A DNA stretch of 64,000 bases from Halocynthiibacter sp. SDUM655004. Lineage in GTDB: Bacteria > Pseudomonadota > Alphaproteobacteria > Rhodobacterales > Rhodobacteraceae. Numbering within the stretch: the first letter of the stretch is position 1; each line of letters opens with the position of its first letter. Location: contig NZ_JAPDUG010000002.1 in assembly GCF_026015885.1 (NCBI RefSeq), positions 992,001-1,056,000 on the forward strand. Reading direction: 5' to 3'. Positions 30,850-40,769 of the stretch are shown here, piece by piece. A model generated the notes under the pieces. The model worked only from the letters and a program-made list of their open reading frames with translations. It had not been told where the DNA came from and ran no database searches. The position numbers were made by a program, and so were the translations under genes.

Positions 30850-30939
30850 GGAGACGTGGCCGAGTGGTCGAAGGCGCTCCCCTGCTAAGGGAGTAGGCGG
30901 GAAACCGTCTCGAGGGTTCGAATCCCTTCGTCTCCGCCA
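30850..30939 (+). tRNA. tRNA-Ser (anticodon GCU)
   Basis: A 90-nt type II tRNA with a long variable arm: acceptor GGAGACG pairs with CGTCTCC, D-arm GCCGAGTGGTCGAAGGC, anticodon loop CTGCTAA giving anticodon GCT (reads AGC/AGU), T-arm with GGTTCGAATCC, discriminator G and encoded CCA. It serves as integration site for the adjacent island, whose integrase begins 143 bp downstream. Confidence 0.97.
30926..30937 (+). other. Island left attachment site (attL) in tRNA-Ser 3' end
   Basis: The 12 bases CTTCGTCTCCGC in the acceptor end of tRNA-Ser recur exactly at 53,817-53,828. With an integrase gene immediately downstream, this is the expected geometry of attL, where the island restores the tRNA end. 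Confidence 0.6.
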
Positions 30940-31027
30940 CCAGATCGATGGCATTCTGAAAATTATTCAATCAAATCAACTAAACACACCAGCCCCACAA
31001 ACAAAGGCGCCCTAACCTCCTTGATCT

Positions 31028-31059
31028 GCTACCCTTTTTGCGCCACATTTTGCACCACA
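31028..31059 (+). repeat. Candidate integrase arm-site repeat, left end
   Basis: GCTACCCTTTTTGCGCCACA (31,028-31,047) matches 18 of 20 bases with 53,726-53,745 at the far end of the island. It is directly followed by TTTTGCACCACA (31,048-31,059), an imperfect tandem copy of its second half. Position between the att core and the integrase start suggests arm-type integrase binding sites. Confidence 0.55.
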
Positions 31060-31081
31060 TTGAGGCAAAGGTGAGTGGCAT

Positions 31082-32434
31082 ATGGTCAATCTGGTTCGGC
31101 GTGGAACGACATGGTATTTGAAGCGACGGGTTCCTGTTCAGTTTGCCAAGATCGAGCCCCGCAAGATCATCTGGATCAGCCTCAAAACAGATTCTCAATC
31201 CCTTGCCCGCATCAGAGCGAATACGATTTGGGCTGAACAGGTAGCGCTGTGGGAGGCAAAGCTTCTGGGACGTGATGGTTCCGAAGTGGAAAAGTATCGC
31301 GCCGCCCAACAGATCGCTTCTGCGCATGGCTTTACGTTTCAACATCTCTCAGAACTGCAAACCGCACCGCTGGAGGATATTCTTGAGCGCGTTGAAGAGT
31401 TGGCAGCCACCAGTGGAACGCCGGACAAAGAGCTTGCAACCGCTCTCTTAGGCAATGTTACGGCTCCAACGCTTAAGCTCTCCGGTTTGGTGGACCACGT
31501 TCAGGACCTCAACGCACACGACAATCGCTTCAAAAGCCCCGAACAAATGCGGCTTTGGCTAAACCCTCGTAAGCGAGCTGTTGGTAATCTTATCAAGGCT
31601 CTGGGAAAAGATTGCGATGTTATTGCTGTTGGCACCCCCGAAGCGCGCCGTCATCGAAAATGGTGGCAGGCGAAGATCGAACGAGAGGGGCAGTCGGTCA
31701 AAACAGCGAACAAAGATTTTCATTACCTTTCCGGGATGCTCGCGCGATTTTACGATGACCTTGATCATGAAGATCCTCCCAGGCCCTATGCCGGTGTTGC
31801 CATTCGTGATCGCCATGCAAGCAGCAGCCGTAAGGCAGAAGTGCCGGTTGAGTGGATTACCGAGAAGTGGTTTGCGCCTGGCGCATTCAATGGGTTGAAC
31901 GCCGAAGCACGGGATATCTTGCTTATGTCGATTGAGACGGGATGCCGACAAAGCGAGATCTATAACCTTCCGGCCTCCGCCCTGAAGCTGGATCACCCAA
32001 TCCCCCATATCGAGGTTGTTAATGAGGCCTCAGACGATCCGGACAACCGCCGCGAAGTCAAAAACCAATCCTCGCAACGGCAAATTCCATTGGTTGGCGT
32101 TGCGCTTGAGGCCGCGAAGCGTCATGCGGAGGGCTTCCCACGCTATCGCAACAAGAGCAGCTATAGCGCGACGGTTAACAAATTCTTACGCGAGAGTAAG
32201 CTGCTTCCCGAAGGCGTCACCATCGGTGGTCTGCGTCACAGTTGGGAGAGCCGGATGAAGAAAGCGGGCTATGATACAGACGACCGCGGCGAACTCATGG
32301 GCCACTCGCTGAAGGGGCGACGTGGGCGCGAAGTCTACGGTGACAGCATGCCCCTCGCAGAGCGGCAGGAGATTGCACTGTCGGTTATGCTGGACGTACC
32401 GGAGCATCTGATGGGGACAGCGGAAAACGGATAG
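31082..32434 (+). CDS. int: Tyrosine-type site-specific integrase
   Basis: 450 residues. The N-terminus MVNLVRRGTTWYLKRRVPVQFAKIEPRKIIWISLKTDSQSLARIRANTIW resembles the DUF6538 domain of alphaproteobacterial island integrases. The C-terminal catalytic domain shows Arg I in SIETGCRQSEIYNLP, the box II GGLRHSWESRMKKAG (His, Arg), and MGHSLKGRRGREVYGD carrying the late His and the Tyr nucleophile (Y around 430). It sits 143 bp after tRNA-Ser in the same direction and would catalyse integration and excision at the tRNA 3' end. Confidence 0.93.
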   Translation: MVNLVRRGTTWYLKRRVPVQFAKIEPRKIIWISLKTDSQSLARIRANTIWAEQVALWEAKLLGRDGSEVEKYRAAQQIASAHGFTFQHLSELQTAPLEDILERVEELAATSGTPDKELATALLGNVTAPTLKLSGLVDHVQDLNAHDNRFKSPEQMRLWLNPRKRAVGNLIKALGKDCDVIAVGTPEARRHRKWWQAKIEREGQSVKTANKDFHYLSGMLARFYDDLDHEDPPRPYAGVAIRDRHASSSRKAEVPVEWITEKWFAPGAFNGLNAEARDILLMSIETGCRQSEIYNLPASALKLDHPIPHIEVVNEASDDPDNRREVKNQSSQRQIPLVGVALEAAKRHAEGFPRYRNKSSYSATVNKFLRESKLLPEGVTIGGLRHSWESRMKKAGYDTDDRGELMGHSLKGRRGREVYGDSMPLAERQEIALSVMLDVPEHLMGTAENG

Positions 32435-32817
32435 CCATGGCCTTCTGCTTCCAAGGCACTCCTCAACAAGCTCACCGGGTTTGGCGAACGAACCGCAGAT
32501 ATTCCTACCCCGCGGTCCGGCAAAATGTTGATAGAAAGCGGGCTGTTGCGAAGCACCAGTTCTCACCCACTCCTCATTTGCAGTAAACCTGATATGCAAG
32601 ATTACCGAACTGGGTCAGTTGGGACGAGGAGAGCGCCTTTAGTTTCGCGTTGCGAAAATAGCTTTTCGTTGCGGCGATCTCACACATACTTTGGCTAAAT
32701 TACAGAAAACTTGTTGTTGATCTGCCGACCGACATCACACCCTCAATTGATGCCAGCCCCATCCCATTTCACCCCATTCAAAAAAAGTCGGTCCGCGAAA
32801 AAACCTGTGGATAACCC
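32435..32817. other. Non-coding region with DnaA box and repeat structure (possible oriT/control region)
   Basis: A 383-bp region between integrase and mobilisation genes, with no convincing gene. It holds a CGTTGCG direct repeat (32,648-32,654 and 32,667-32,673) enclosing the inverted repeat CGAAAA-TAGC-TTTTCG, and a perfect DnaA box in TGTGGATAA (32,806-32,814). The position just before a relaxase operon makes it the natural place for oriT, but no nic site can be recognised. Confidence 0.35.
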
Positions 32818-33042
32818 TTGGAAGCAGCCTTGGGTTCGCGGCACTCGGTCATTCTCATATCGAAACTCGATCAGCTTCTCGCGCAGCAGCTTGAGATTGC
32901 GCAGGCCATCGATGCCGCCGGCGATAATCTCGACTGTACAATGTGTCTGGCCCAGCTTGAGCGGCTGGAGCAGATGTTTACCTCCCTCCTCCCGGACTAT
33001 GACCCGCGCACCGCCGTGGCCTGTGAGGATAGCCCCTTATGA
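32818..33042 (+). CDS. Small protein coupled to relaxase (possible relaxosome accessory)
   Basis: A 74-residue frame with regular helix-forming composition: KLDQLLAQQLEIAQAIDAAGDN-LDCTMCLAQLERLEQMFTSLLPDYDP. Its stop overlaps the relaxase ATG by ATGA, the usual sign of translational coupling. There is no ATG start; TTG at 32,818 or 32,830 must be used, since an in-frame stop lies at 32,812. MobC-like accessory proteins occupy this position in other mobilisation operons, but I see no clear homology. Confidence 0.5.
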   Translation: MEAALGSRHSVILISKLDQLLAQQLEIAQAIDAAGDNLDCTMCLAQLERLEQMFTSLLPDYDPRTAVACEDSPL

Positions 33043-35156
33043 TGATCGGCTGGTCCAGGCATATGGAGGCACCGGAACCGCGCATCCCGATTGATTATGC
33101 GCTGGCGCCTTCGGTGCTCAAACCCGGCGTTGGGAATGTGGCGCGCACCCCGGCTCCCGAGCTGCTGCACGGGCGTCCACAACTGCTGTTATCAACGCTG
33201 CATGCAATCACAACCCAAACCAAAATCCGCACGATGGTCTTATCGTTCCATGAGCATGATATCGATCAGGAGGCCTTTAACCGCGGCGACCCTGCGCTCC
33301 GACAGAAAGTGGCGCGGGTGCTGTTTGCGGTCGACGCTTTTGCCCATGCGGGGATTCCGCAGCACGCGCGTCTGCCATTTATGGTGACGACGCACACCCA
33401 TGCAAAGAGGTTCGAGCTGAATGTGCTTTGGCCGCGCTGCGTGATGGGAGGCCATGGGCGTCCATTAAACATCAACCAGCACTCCCTCTCGGAAGGCACT
33501 AAGGCCCATTGGAACAGTCTAGAGGATTTCCTGAACCACCACTTCGGCTTTGCAGATCCTCGTGATCCAGAGCGCAAACTCGGGCTTACCGGCCCGGACA
33601 AGCTCGAGAAGGAAGTGATCGAGGCCACACGTGCAGGCATCACGTTTGGCCCTGACAGGCCCAGAGAGATGGTGGTGCAGGCACTGCAGAAGCTGCGCCA
33701 TGCAAAAACCCCTCTGCAAGACATGCTGAACCGCATAGGAGAGATACTGAGGACACTGGGCTGGGGTCCCCAAGACATACCGTCGTCCAAACCAGACAAG
33801 GACGCCCTACTGCTTGGCGCGCCGGGCGCGCCGCGCCGCGATGGCGTTGTGGTGACCGGCTTGATCATGGACGGTCCCGGAGATGAGGCGAAGCTGCAGC
33901 GGGCTTTGCGGAACCGCCAAGCCTATTTAGACGGGGCCGCACCCCGCCTTGTCTCCAACTGGCAACGACGCGTGAGCTATAACCACCGCTACTTCGGCAA
34001 AGGGAATTGGCCAGCGCCGCGGTCGGCCGAAGAGATCGTTGCGATGATCGGCTCTGCGACGAACAACACCGCGGCGCTGCCGATCCCGCGCGTTCACCCT
34101 GACTTTAAGCCACGCCCTGCCCTGAACATATCTGCGACGGTGTCCCGTGCGTCCGCCCTACGTGGGGCCGACGTGCTTCTGGCGCGGCTTCACCGGATTT
34201 TGGACCATATCAATGCCCGGCGGCAGCAGTTGCTGTTTGACAGGTTCTGCGCAGCCCTCACACCACAGCTTACGAACATCGCCACTCAACTGGAGTCTCG
34301 CCATGACCGAAGAACCCATCTCACCACATCCCTCTCAGCCCAATCAGCACAGTCAGGCCAGTCAACCCAAGGTCGCGACCTCCGCTCCGGACACAGCCGA
34401 GCGGCTGGATTATCTGATCAATCTTCTCGAGCAGTTGCTGAACGCGCGGGACGCCTCACCTCTGAACGACAACATCGCTCAGGCACTCCAGCTTCTGACC
34501 CGGATCGCTACGGAACTGGAGAAACCGGCGGATTACTCGGAGTTGAGCAAGCAGATCGACGAGAAGTTCGCGACACTGGGGCACCAGCTCAACGAACAAG
34601 CGCAACAGATAAAGAAGCTGAACGAGCATCTCGACGCGCAGAAGAAAGAGATGAAGGCGCAAACACAGATTCTGCAACAGCTGCAGAACTGGCTCACGGT
34701 CCCGGTGCGTTCAGACCCGACAAATACAGCCGCGGCGAAAGACTAAAGGCCGCTCACGCCGCACTGCAGCAGATCTTTCCGGGGGAGCTATTCCGCATGC
34801 GCTTCTGGCATATATCGCAGGTCGGCGAAGTTCTTGCGATCCGGCTCGCCGGCGGTGTCATCGTTCTCACGACAGCGGAATTACTCCATGCCAAAACGCA
34901 AATCCCCTCCCGTAAGTTGGCCGCGCTCGGTGCCGAACTCGGTCTTTCCTATTTGCCACCACGGGGACAAAGGGTAAGGCCGAGGCCGGAACCAAAACCT
35001 GACCAAAAACCTGCGCCGCAACCAGAGCCGAGCCCGGTGCCTCCCCCAGAACCTGAGCCGGCCCCCGAAGCGCCGGAGGATGAAGATACCACCGAGGAAA
35101 CCTACGGCATCGACATTCCTGACGCTCCCGACGATCCCTCGCCGGATTTTTTCTAG
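33039..35156 (+). CDS. Relaxase/mobilisation nuclease
   Basis: 705 residues. The N-terminal third carries the relaxase core: RTMVLSFHEHDI, then MVTTHTHAKRFELNVLWPR with the metal-ligand H-x-H near residues 119 and 121, and GRPLNINQH followed by LEDFLNHHFGFADPRDPER. This matches the relaxase family pattern HTxxGRxELHFVxxR...GRxLNxxPP...LxDxxNxxHGWAxPxDP. Residues about 420-580 are an uneven Ser/Arg/Gln/Ala-rich linker that overlaps another gene. Then comes a compact domain (ELFRMRFWHISQVGEVLAIRLAGGVIVLTTAELLHAKT) and a Pro/Glu/Asp-rich tail. It would nick oriT and pilot the strand for mobilisation. ATG at 33,039 or 33,042. Confidence 0.65.
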   Translation: MMIGWSRHMEAPEPRIPIDYALAPSVLKPGVGNVARTPAPELLHGRPQLLLSTLHAITTQTKIRTMVLSFHEHDIDQEAFNRGDPALRQKVARVLFAVDAFAHAGIPQHARLPFMVTTHTHAKRFELNVLWPRCVMGGHGRPLNINQHSLSEGTKAHWNSLEDFLNHHFGFADPRDPERKLGLTGPDKLEKEVIEATRAGITFGPDRPREMVVQALQKLRHAKTPLQDMLNRIGEILRTLGWGPQDIPSSKPDKDALLLGAPGAPRRDGVVVTGLIMDGPGDEAKLQRALRNRQAYLDGAAPRLVSNWQRRVSYNHRYFGKGNWPAPRSAEEIVAMIGSATNNTAALPIPRVHPDFKPRPALNISATVSRASALRGADVLLARLHRILDHINARRQQLLFDRFCAALTPQLTNIATQLESRHDRRTHLTTSLSAQSAQSGQSTQGRDLRSGHSRAAGLSDQSSRAVAERAGRLTSERQHRSGTPASDPDRYGTGETGGLLGVEQADRREVRDTGAPAQRTSATDKEAERASRRAEERDEGANTDSATAAELAHGPGAFRPDKYSRGERLKAAHAALQQIFPGELFRMRFWHISQVGEVLAIRLAGGVIVLTTAELLHAKTQIPSRKLAALGAELGLSYLPPRGQRVRPRPEPKPDQKPAPQPEPSPVPPPEPEPAPEAPEDEDTTEETYGIDIPDAPDDPSPDFF
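34303..34746 (+). CDS. Overprinted coiled-coil gene nested in the relaxase (MobB-like position)
   Basis: A 147-residue gene lying wholly inside the relaxase gene in the +1 frame. From an ATG at 34,303 with GGAG seven bases ahead, it encodes an acidic, helix-rich protein: TAERLDYLINLLEQLLNARDASPLNDNIAQALQLLTRIATELEKPADYSELSKQIDEKFATLGHQLNEQAQQIKKLNEHLDAQKKEMKAQTQILQQLQNWL, clear leucine heptads over about residues 28-130. Meanwhile the relaxase frame over the same bases is low-complexity, as expected where the nested frame carries the constraint. ColE1-type plasmids similarly nest mobB in mobA. Function by analogy: relaxosome accessory. Confidence 0.7.
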   Translation: MTEEPISPHPSQPNQHSQASQPKVATSAPDTAERLDYLINLLEQLLNARDASPLNDNIAQALQLLTRIATELEKPADYSELSKQIDEKFATLGHQLNEQAQQIKKLNEHLDAQKKEMKAQTQILQQLQNWLTVPVRSDPTNTAAAKD

Positions 35157-36999: not shown

Positions 37000-37322
37000 C
37001 ACGCAGCTCCTGGTTTTGGGTTGGCTCTCTTAGGCCGCCCACCTCCCGGCTTTCCTCAGAACCTATCGCAACACGTTCGGCATAGGGGCCGCTTCAAAAG
37101 AGAGGTCCCTTTCGGGCGCCTCGACGTCCTTGAACGGTTCACGCTGTTCAGGCGGCGGCGCTCCGCACTCTGCTCAGATATCTCTGCGCGCCTCGTGTTG
37201 CACCACATTCCCCTTGCATGCGCTGCACGCTGCGGGGCTGTCCAGCGATGCCGTTGGCCAGCCTGCAACCCTCTCCGCATGTCCAACTCAATTCGCATGT
37301 CCAACTCAAAATGGAGCTTCTT
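37000..37322. other. Intergenic region with an 18-bp tandem repeat
   Basis: No gene is visible. Just before the next start codon an 18-bp unit beginning CGCATGTCCAACTCAA occurs twice in tandem at 37,276-37,311. It may be an operator or duplication scar for the zinc-ribbon gene downstream. Confidence 0.5.
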
Positions 37323-38276
37323 ATGAGCATCACAACGTCACCATCAGCAACACTCTCCTCAACACCGCCAGCAACACCGCCAGCAACACTGTCTACACCG
37401 GGTATCCCCCAAGCCATCCATGCCCGTTGGCAGGAGGCCGCCAAGGCCAAAGGCTTTGACATTCTCGCGCGGGTCAAAGACCGCTTTCATCTCTCTATCC
37501 GCTGTACAGCCTGTCATCGGGCCCATGACACACGGATCAATGTGGTGCGTGATCACCAGCCGCTTTGCCCTCACTGTATCGAAGACCGTTGGCGCGCAGA
37601 TGCAAAGGCCGTTGGGCTGGTCTGGGAGGGGCGCGACCCGGAGGATCCACTTGCCGCCTTCTATACCGCCCCCTGCGGTCATCGCCTCCGTCGCCAGTTC
37701 GAGCTGATCAAGCGCGTCAAAGCCGGAACCTGCTCCTATCGCTGCGAGATCTGCCACAAGGCCAAGGAGGAAGCCGAAGCGGAGGCACGGGGCTGGACGC
37801 TCCTCGGGCCGGATCCGGAGGGGAATCCGAACTATCGCCTTTATGAACACAAAGACTGTGGTCATCAGCAGCGTATCGCCCGCGCCAATATGCAATCAGG
37901 GCGCTTTACCTGCGCCAGTTGCGACGCGGGTTGGGCTTCAGAGCCAAGCTTTATCTATGCCATGCGCTTCGTGCTTCCTGACGGGACCCGCCTTGCCAAG
38001 CTCGGCTTCTCCCGTGATCCGCAGTCGCGTCTTACCTATCAGCTCAAGCGCAGCCCCGATCTCGTGGCCAGCGTACTTCTCACCGTGCCCTTTGCCACGG
38101 GCCATGACGCGCTCTGTCAGGAAAAGGCACTGCATACCGCACTGAAGGCCCGTCATCCAGACGCCGTGGTGCCCGCTGCCACCTATGCGCCTTGGATCAA
38201 CGTGCGCTCCGAGATCTATAACGGGGCGCTGGAACCAGAGATCCTCAAGGTGCTGACCGCGCTTTTGCCAAGCTAG
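37323..38276 (+). CDS. Zinc-ribbon GIY-YIG-like nuclease-family protein
   Basis: 317 residues. Short Thr/Pro-rich start (repeats of PPAT), then three Cys/His modules: CTACHRAH with CPHC, CGHRLRRQ with CEICH, and CGHQQRIA with CASC, each separated by about 60 residues and resembling repeated zinc ribbons. The C-terminal domain SFIYAMRFVLPDGTRLAKLGFSRDPQSRLTYQLKR looks like the GIY-YIG/T5orf172 fold, with the Y-x-M strand, K-L-G-F-S and Arg. The catalytic Glu may be in the later HDALCQEKALHTALK. Island proteins of this kind may act in DNA maintenance; function is inferred. Confidence 0.65.
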   Translation: MSITTSPSATLSSTPPATPPATLSTPGIPQAIHARWQEAAKAKGFDILARVKDRFHLSIRCTACHRAHDTRINVVRDHQPLCPHCIEDRWRADAKAVGLVWEGRDPEDPLAAFYTAPCGHRLRRQFELIKRVKAGTCSYRCEICHKAKEEAEAEARGWTLLGPDPEGNPNYRLYEHKDCGHQQRIARANMQSGRFTCASCDAGWASEPSFIYAMRFVLPDGTRLAKLGFSRDPQSRLTYQLKRSPDLVASVLLTVPFATGHDALCQEKALHTALKARHPDAVVPAATYAPWINVRSEIYNGALEPEILKVLTALLPS

Positions 38277-38423: not shown

Positions 38424-40769
38424 ATGACCGTTTTATCCTCACCCTCTGCTGCATCCGCCACTGCCGCTTCCAAGTCTACTCAGGCGTCACCAGCGCGCGC
38501 CTCCGCAGCTGCAGTCTCCCCGTCACACGCCACCACCACCTCCTCTGCCTCGCCCAACGCGCTCATGCGCCGGCGTCCGGAGTGGTGGAGCTTTGCCCAA
38601 GAGGTCATCACCCGTTTGCGCAAGGCGCAAATGGAGAAGTTAAAGCTGCAAGCGGCCGAGCGGGCCGAGGCACAGGCAGCGCTGCAAGCCCATGCGCAGC
38701 GCAAGCCGTCCACTCCGCGGCCCAGCTTTGGCGCAACCTACCAGCCCCCTCTGCACCAGAGCCCATTCCTTCAGGCGCTTTTGGAGCACGCAGGGCCAAC
38801 CCAGAACCTGCCCGAGGTTACAGAGGCCATTCGTGCCGAGGGTGGCGATCCCTATGCCACCGATACAGAGGGCCGCGCCATGCCCGCGCCCGCCCTGCCC
38901 CATCGGGAGTTGCTCATGGCGCTGCGGCTTGCTGTAAGCTTTGGCAGCAGCGCGTGCATTACCCGCGCCCTCGCCCCCGGTTCCCTCACTCTCATTCTGG
39001 GGCATGAAGGCGGGCGCTTGGTGGAAAAACTCATGTCCAACATCCTTCTGCCGGATGGCTGGGACAGCTGTGGGCCGATCCCCACAGCCTTTGAACCGCG
39101 ACGGCTTTATATCCCCGACACCATGTCGCCGAAGGATCTGAAGCACATCCTCGCCACCCGCACCCCGATCCTGTGCTTTGCCGAGACCGAGGAGGAATTG
39201 CCTCCGCTCCTGCAAGACACAGCACCGCAACAAGCGCGTCTCTCCCTTGCGCCCGTCACCCAAGACCTGCTGCTCGCCGTCCTGCGGGCAAGCCACAGCG
39301 CCACAGGGCGGGTCGACGAGGCTGCGGTCTGCAAAGCGCTACCGGATGAGGTGGTCCTCGCTGAGATGAACGAGGTCGAGCTTCTCTTTGCTCTCCGTGC
39401 GCCGACAGCTCTTGAGGCGGCCGAGAGTCTGGCGATGCTGGCGGAGAGAAAGCGCGCAACACCTGGTCCGACCCCTGACCCGACAGCTTTGATGGGCACC
39501 ACCACCGCTCATCAGGCCGCGCGACGGATCATGTCTGACCTCAAGCTCTGGACCGCGCGCCAGCAGGAGAGCTCCAAGCAAGCTCCTATTCCATGGGGAG
39601 AGCTCACCCGCTCCCTGCTCATCCACGGTGCCCCAGGCACCGGCAAGTCCTATATGGCGCGGCAAATGGCGCGTTATGCGGGCGCGACCCTTGTTGAAGC
39701 CAGCTTTGCCACATGGCAGAGCGCAGGACATCTTGGCCAGATGCTCAATGCGATGCGCGCCAGTTTTGATGAGGCGCTCAAAGCCTCCCCTGCGGTGCTG
39801 TTCATCGACGAGATCGACGCCGTCGGGTCCCGCTTCGGCAGCGATCACAACGGCAAATCCTATCGGGTGCAGGTGATCAACGGCTTTCTGGAGCAGGTCG
39901 ACCGTTTGGCCCGCCACGAGGGGGTTATTCTGGTGGGCGCTTGTAACCGCGTGGAGTCGCTTGATCCAGCGATCCAGCGCCCCGGTCGGTTTGACGAGAT
40001 CATCGAGATGCCCCTGCCCGATCTGCACGACATCACCGCCATGCTGCGCGGTGCTCTTGGGCAGAGCTGCGATAAGGCTACAGTCACCTCACCCGCAATC
40101 ACGTCTCTCGCTCACTCTTGCGTTGGCCGCACGCCGGCTGTGATCGATGCGGCCCTGCGCGCGGCAAAGTCCGAGGCGCGCCTAAACAGCTGTGCGCTTG
40201 ATCTACCCACGCTGGAGAAGCATCTCGGGGCCACGCAAGAAGACCCCGCTCGTCTGCGGCGCATCGCGCTCCATGAGGCGGGGCATGCGCTGGTCAGCGC
40301 CCTGCTCACCGGACAGCTCCCCCAGCGTATTGTGATCGCGGCCGACAGCGGCTTTGTCGAGGAAGCTCGTGCCACGCCGCCCAGCACGCGCCAGGAGTTC
40401 GAGGACCGCGTTGCGATCCTGCTGGCCGGTCGCGCAGCCGAGCACCTGATGCTTGGGGAGGTCTCGAGCGGATCGGGCGGCGGGACCAAGAGCGATCTCG
40501 CCCGCGCCACCCTGCTCCTCACGCAGATGAGCCGCGAGCTCGGCCTCGGTCTCCACGGCCCTCTCTGGCTCGGCCCCATCGTCCCGCAGAGCCTCAGCGA
40601 CAAAGAGCACAACGACATCACCGCCAAGCTCACACGTCAGCAAGACCGCGCTCGTGATTTGCTTGCGCCTCGGAAAGGGCAGATCGAGAGGCTGGCGGAC
40701 GTGCTTGTTGCTGAGCGGGAAGTTAAGCGCGAGAGACTGGTGGGGTTGTTTAAGGATATGGAAGTCTAG
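38424..40769 (+). CDS. Soluble FtsH-like AAA+ zinc metalloprotease
   Basis: 781 residues. The N-terminal half (1-370) is Ala/Ser/Pro-rich then unrecognised, with no membrane span. The AAA module has Walker A GAPGTGKS (402-409), Walker B AVLFIDEIDAVGS (near 458-467) and the second region of homology VGACNRVESLDPAIQRPGRFDEIIEMPLPD. The C-terminal M41 peptidase has HEAGH (617-621) and the third ligand region SGGGTKSDLARATLLLTQMSRELGLG. FtsH itself is anchored by N-terminal TMs; this one is not. Probably an element-borne, ATP-driven protease for DNA-associated or replication proteins; target unknown. The FtsH pore motif is altered (ASFATWQSAG). Confidence 0.85.
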   Translation: MTVLSSPSAASATAASKSTQASPARASAAAVSPSHATTTSSASPNALMRRRPEWWSFAQEVITRLRKAQMEKLKLQAAERAEAQAALQAHAQRKPSTPRPSFGATYQPPLHQSPFLQALLEHAGPTQNLPEVTEAIRAEGGDPYATDTEGRAMPAPALPHRELLMALRLAVSFGSSACITRALAPGSLTLILGHEGGRLVEKLMSNILLPDGWDSCGPIPTAFEPRRLYIPDTMSPKDLKHILATRTPILCFAETEEELPPLLQDTAPQQARLSLAPVTQDLLLAVLRASHSATGRVDEAAVCKALPDEVVLAEMNEVELLFALRAPTALEAAESLAMLAERKRATPGPTPDPTALMGTTTAHQAARRIMSDLKLWTARQQESSKQAPIPWGELTRSLLIHGAPGTGKSYMARQMARYAGATLVEASFATWQSAGHLGQMLNAMRASFDEALKASPAVLFIDEIDAVGSRFGSDHNGKSYRVQVINGFLEQVDRLARHEGVILVGACNRVESLDPAIQRPGRFDEIIEMPLPDLHDITAMLRGALGQSCDKATVTSPAITSLAHSCVGRTPAVIDAALRAAKSEARLNSCALDLPTLEKHLGATQEDPARLRRIALHEAGHALVSALLTGQLPQRIVIAADSGFVEEARATPPSTRQEFEDRVAILLAGRAAEHLMLGEVSSGSGGGTKSDLARATLLLTQMSRELGLGLHGPLWLGPIVPQSLSDKEHNDITAKLTRQQDRARDLLAPRKGQIERLADVLVAEREVKRERLVGLFKDMEV

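Follow-up and report, generated by a model that had tools for sequence, protein, structure and literature searches.

The closest described systems are the ColE-type mobilization regions, such as that of pSNC3-Kan or of canonical loci like L002, in which mobC lies just upstream of a MOB-HEN relaxase gene, mobA, and small accessory genes with their own starts are placed wholly inside mobA in the +1 frame. For pSNC3-Kan, the available text of PMC9282650 gives the coordinates of both mobB and mobD within mobA, each in the +1 frame. The HEN form of motif III is the mark of the ColE1 MbeA class of relaxases, according to the accessible parts of PMC12857230 and PMC9282650. MobB of RSF1010, whose gene lies within mobA/repB in a different frame, is required for mobilization (PMC2200642, available in part). 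RSF1010 resembles our locus by description, not by sequence, in carrying an accessory mobilization gene in a second frame of the relaxase gene, but it belongs to another relaxase family, MOBQ, and its host gene continues into a primase. Overlapping mob ORFs, mobA-mobB-mobC, were also described for the Paracoccus plasmids pMARC2 and pAES4, typed as MOBP5(HEN) and similar to Aeromonas pAsal2 (PMC3832669, in the sections available); here too the likeness is one of description and not of sequence, and it comprises the alphaproteobacterial host, the relaxase type and the overlapping frames. Nested +1 mobB and mobD genes in MOB-HEN relaxases are thus already known. What is new in this work is the family of nested genes designated N.

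The window, i.e., the whole 64-kb stretch of DNA that was analysed, carries a mobilization module next to a tRNA-Ser gene (30850-30939). The tRNA gene adjoins a tyrosine integrase gene (31082-32434, + strand), assigned by domain search, and on the basis of these two neighbours the module is considered part of an integrative element. No direct repeat of at least 14 nt to the region 30850-31080 was seen elsewhere within the window. A short MobC-like ORF of 74 aa (32818-33042, + strand) overlaps the relaxase start in an ATGA. When compared by eye with L024 and L031, it matched only the C-terminal half of the MobC of the relatives, which is about 112 aa long, and inspection by eye of 32430-33060 in its three forward frames revealed no ribbon-helix-helix-like MobC half. 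Since the MobC-like ORF is short, the mobilization module of the window may be impaired. Two VirB4 and two VirD4 homologues are encoded elsewhere in the same genome, outside the window, and could act as helpers for transfer. The genome also contains a canonical mobC-mobA locus with nested MobB and MobD, L002 (G000:C4:122618-126007). Two further genes of the window were recorded: a Cys-rich protein at 37218-38276, which matches the endonuclease phrog_681 (E 5e-10), and, in the GC-rich stretch after the relaxase, a 781-aa FtsH-like protein with an AAA ATPase and an M41 peptidase part and a low-complexity N-terminus at 38424-40769.

The host frame of 705 aa (33039-35156, + strand) was assigned, from its motifs and a modelled fold, to the MOB-HEN (MOBP5) relaxases, the class of ColE1 itself, of which it is a divergent member. 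The predicted catalytic Tyr20 of motif I (codon 33096-33098, + strand) is invariant across the 15 rows of alignment A5. Motif III (33393-33422, + strand) has the residues H119, E126 and N128, that is HEN and not 3H; the first two are invariant in A5 and N128 is conserved in at least 90%. The spacing is the same as in the HQD-x4-ELNF given in the available text of PMC9282650. An AlphaFold2 model of residues 1-334 had a mean pLDDT of 69, with the best blocks above 90. Foldseek placed relaxases at ranks 1-26 with this model, at a best E of 0.004 and none at or below 0.001; in VIA-align, which only re-ranks the Foldseek matches, the best 27 rows were all relaxases with Z from 7.5 to 9.7, the next fold being at 4.8. 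The top match was R1162 MobA (Z 9.7, rmsd 3.5, 142 aligned). Searches with tblastn tied the protein to annotated relaxases of small plasmids, and residues 35-180 were 33% identical to the canonical MobA of L002. No Pfam match was obtained at E<=1, NCBIfam gave two unspecific matches only, the relaxase profile found nothing among PDB sequences at E<=1, and scans of genome contigs and viral contigs found no relative. Profile A2 reached canonical MobA at about 1e-20, yet a midpoint-rooted relaxase tree of 37 rows put the window's family, which makes up 31 of the rows and includes two without N, on a branch separate from canonical MobA (97/98).

The nested ORF starts with ATG at 34303 and its stop ends at 34746 (+ strand), giving 147 residues wholly inside the relaxase frame and in the +1 frame relative to it, (34303-33039) mod 3 being 1. 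A Shine-Dalgarno-like GGAG lies at 34292-34295 (+ strand), 7 bases before the ATG. The complete gene of this size, frame and upstream signal announced by the original prediction is therefore present, and so is the arrangement it had likened to mobB in mobA of ColE1, i.e., a gene with its own predicted start in the +1 frame of a MOB-HEN relaxase. The open frame extends back to 34126; the GGAG and the alignment with relatives make 34303 the likely start. The leucine heptads, predicted as well, were recovered in residues 75-132, where a single heptad register has 17 a/d positions that take up 11 of the 13 L/I/V/M/F residues. AlphaFold2 predicts helices only (28-48, 54-72 and 75-132; mean pLDDT 73), and with a pTM of 0.38 the model supports no tertiary claim. 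Pfam, NCBIfam and PHROGs returned only weak matches to N, mostly with coiled-coil families and below the curated cut-offs where such exist. The absence from Pfam is uninformative, because Pfam missed the canonical nested proteins as well. A tblastn search of plasmids with the nested protein of the window gave no match at E<=0.01.

In the overlap the relaxase frame is of low complexity, as had been expected, and rich in Arg (15%), Ala (14%), Ser (11%) and Gly (11%); of the Ser/Arg/Gln richness originally described, the Gln part applies only to the first part of the overlap. Beyond the nested stop the relaxase continues (34749-35156, + strand) with approximately 75 ordered-looking residues, followed by a Pro/Glu-rich end. 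Such a further C-terminal region after the nested gene distinguishes the window from canonical MobA, most frames of which have around 520 codons. We set aside frameshifting or recoding as the source of this C-terminus, because 28 sources show an uninterrupted relaxase frame.

The +1 frame could be open by chance, or because the relaxase linker is of low-complexity composition, with no protein being made from it. The length of the ORF gives this reading some room. Synonymous shuffles of the relaxase contained an ATG ORF of at least 147 codons in 3.1% of cases, and the nested stretch of the window stayed open in 3.2% with the codon usage of the upstream relaxase part, so that length alone reaches only P=0.03, which is too weak to build on. 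With the relaxase residues fixed, the probability of an open nested stretch was 0.03 in the window and 0.22-0.91 at the other loci, i.e., an open frame is common in many relatives; the product over 17 representatives, 4.6e-6, is approximate as it takes these as independent. Composition is strong evidence to the contrary. Upstream of the overlap the relaxase of the window has a GC content by codon position of 0.66/0.46/0.69, whereas in the overlap the relaxase frame shows 0.72/0.64/0.35 and the nested frame 0.64/0.35/0.71. The coding signature of the window thus follows the nested frame, and the same was observed in the overlaps of all 25 tabulated loci; in the upstream relaxase the GC-poorest codon position was the second in each of them. 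Together with the GGAG, the conserved protein profile, the suppressed third-position divergence and the free-standing copies of N behind a shorter relaxase, all described below, this leaves the absence of a protein very improbable. The reverse calculation concerns the host. Given the nested protein, the relaxase frame had a probability of being open of 0.002 in the window and, with the same approximation of independence, of about 5e-40 over 18 representatives. Since it is open against such odds, the relaxase is also read through the overlap.

Profile A4, built from 17 nested proteins, detected N in 34 of 40 sources: the 17 that supplied the profile, 6 near-copies of those and 11 others, found at E from 6.7e-24 to 3.8e-6. 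All twelve left-out sets were recovered in leave-out tests (weakest L075, E 3.5e-3), and a profile built without the window placed its nested protein in the family at E 6.4e-7 among 4658 frames. The identity of N between the window and its relatives is only 14-22%, and alignments of coiled coils are loose. N was open and in the +1 frame at every one of the 25 tabulated loci, and GGAG was found within 18 nt upstream of its start in 22. Stop codons in the nested frame of related loci had been named beforehand as the observation that would count against the gene, and none occurred. The frame and the position inside the relaxase gene are common to the relatives, and N is linked to this relaxase: across 394 genomes, 11 of the 12 matches to the N profile were at loci of this relaxase, the remaining one being a weak match in a 867-aa frame (G098, 1.1e-5). 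In 28 of the 34 sources N lies inside one continuous relaxase frame. The others comprise L073, where the relaxase is interrupted further upstream, L098, where it is broken, and L077 (4251-4850), where the relaxase frame stops before N; downstream lie N and a frame similar to the C-terminal region of the relaxase, and relative to this frame N is still +1. In the remaining three, L070, L096 and L102, N is un-nested and lies downstream of a shorter relaxase, with an ATGA overlap in L070. Six sources were without N. Among these, L032 and L068 belong to the canonical side of the relaxase tree, L072 is a fragment, L107 lies at a contig edge, and L101 and L103, inside the window's relaxase family, have short relaxase frames.

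Selection was compared among relatives, in nine pairs that come from four clusters, share sequences and do not include the window. The divergence at relaxase third positions was lower in the overlap than upstream in all nine pairs (Fisher P 3.5e-2 to 2.4e-9), for example 0.08 against 0.33 in L024/L025 (P 5.9e-8), 0.29 against 0.62 in L024/L028 (P 2.4e-9) and 0.02 against 0.15 in L104/L105 (P 2.6e-5). The excess conservation at relaxase synonymous sites that the original prediction called for was hence observed, in relatives only. In seven of the pairs the nested protein showed higher conservation than the residues encoded by the relaxase frame in those columns; in L026/L030 and L104/L105 the relaxase-frame residues were marginally better conserved. 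Constraint acts on both frames in these relatives; the window copy itself has no close relative, the nearest relaxase being 35% identical. Related bacteria keep both frames intact, so that one stretch of DNA appears to specify two proteins.

Canonical MobA loci were scanned in the +1 frame for comparison (29 loci, repeat fetches of the same places left out). A nested MobB-like ORF of 142-155 aa, shortened in L019, was found in 28 of them, a MobD-like ORF of 95-104 aa in 23, and nothing in L018. N could be a MobB or MobD that has diverged strongly, or a tandem duplicate of the nested MobD, and so belong to the usual nested genes of the ColE1 type. The host gene class, the +1 frame and the coiled coil agree with this. 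Furthermore, a small nested ORF just upstream of N, here called D-like, is present in 12 of the 40 sources of the window's relaxase family, and in hhalign it matched MobD at 93.9% (E 1.5e-7) over the first 22 columns, the reversed control being at 0.5%. On this profile match the D-like ORF is regarded as a MobD homologue. The D-like profile reached N at 9.9% (reversed control 0.7%), and the N profile weakly touched the D-like ORFs of L030 (4.5e-3), L098 (8.7e-3) and L097 (2.1e-2). On the other side, N itself scored 0.3% with canonical MobD and 0.8% with canonical MobB, with reversed controls of 0.2% each, the MobB comparison covering 12 canonical MobB of this bacterial family. No homology of N to canonical MobB or MobD is detectable by these profile comparisons. 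The best 19-residue hydropathy of N was 0.34-1.54 (n=25; 0.34 in the window) against 1.73-2.38 for canonical MobB (n=12), thus by hydropathy N is without the membrane-like stretch of MobB. Moreover, N and the MobD homologue coexist in the same gene. We therefore consider a diverged MobB or MobD rather improbable. In view of the faint D-like link, N may nevertheless have arisen from a MobD copy. The unrelated look of the family, pointed out earlier, holds for N, which differs from the ColE-type nested genes in forming a separate family by profile comparison and in being placed after the MobD position. It does not hold for the surroundings, as the host is a divergent ColE1-class relaxase and several relatives carry a nested MobD homologue. 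The window itself is without MobB or MobD, and no match to a D-like ORF was found in it.

In the relaxase tree the window pairs with L099 (96/93). The tandem loci L070, L096 and L102 form one clade (100/99), placed among nested loci, which indicates that nesting is probably older in this family and un-nesting derived. We tentatively propose, at slightly less than even confidence, that N represents a third, independent class of gene nested in relaxases, with no kinship to MobB or MobD; that the N frame, and not the relaxase frame, shaped the overlap; that the relaxase tail grew through the accessory gene or was kept only for it; and that one clade freed N by truncating the relaxase.

As to function, our favoured reading, which we hold to be somewhat better than even, is that N is genuinely overprinted, that its gene belongs to the mobilization module of an integrative mobilizable element, and that its product most likely serves as a dedicated relaxase accessory protein. 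One mRNA would span mobC and the relaxase gene and hold an internal ribosome-binding site, from which N would be translated in the +1 frame as a second protein. N would be soluble and mostly helical with a long coiled coil, and should oligomerize. It may then contribute to relaxosome assembly or to docking with a helper type IV secretion system, while the relaxase frame in the overlap would be a flexible passenger linker from the nuclease part to the C-terminal region. We infer this operon, translation, oligomerization and transfer role; the accessory role is the most likely one because N is linked to the relaxase, a helical coiled coil is predicted and RSF1010 MobB sets a precedent. N may alternatively be translated and serve outside transfer, in entry exclusion, control of relaxase level or element maintenance. 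ColE1 MbeD has been linked to exclusion, and no catalytic motif or known domain was found in N with Pfam, NCBIfam or PHROGs, both of which leave space for such a role. The linkage of N to this relaxase favours the relaxosome, and we regard a role outside transfer as rather improbable.

The relaxase and its nested genes are poorly represented in existing records. In the PLSDB gene tables, which are incomplete by their own description, eight of 11 plasmid records (L024-L031, L033-L035) list one or more nested ORFs without the relaxase, three list the relaxase without a nested ORF and none lists both; seven of these plasmids are typed as non-mobilizable. For pYEE3, the plasmid of locus L027, a MOBQ relaxase was assigned, and the available text of PMC6209633 names MOBHEN for pYEE6 only. 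No description of family N was found in the open-licence literature, including the accessible portions of PMC9025767, PMC11578231, PMC3447787 and PMC5864857. This is thus a little-annotated relaxase family with apparent dual coding, badly handled by present pipelines. If N is indeed a third class of nested gene, some relaxases of the group would encode two accessory proteins inside them, N being one and a MobD homologue the other. The clade in which N is un-nested offers a natural overprinting experiment, in which the same protein occurs both with and without a second frame to serve.
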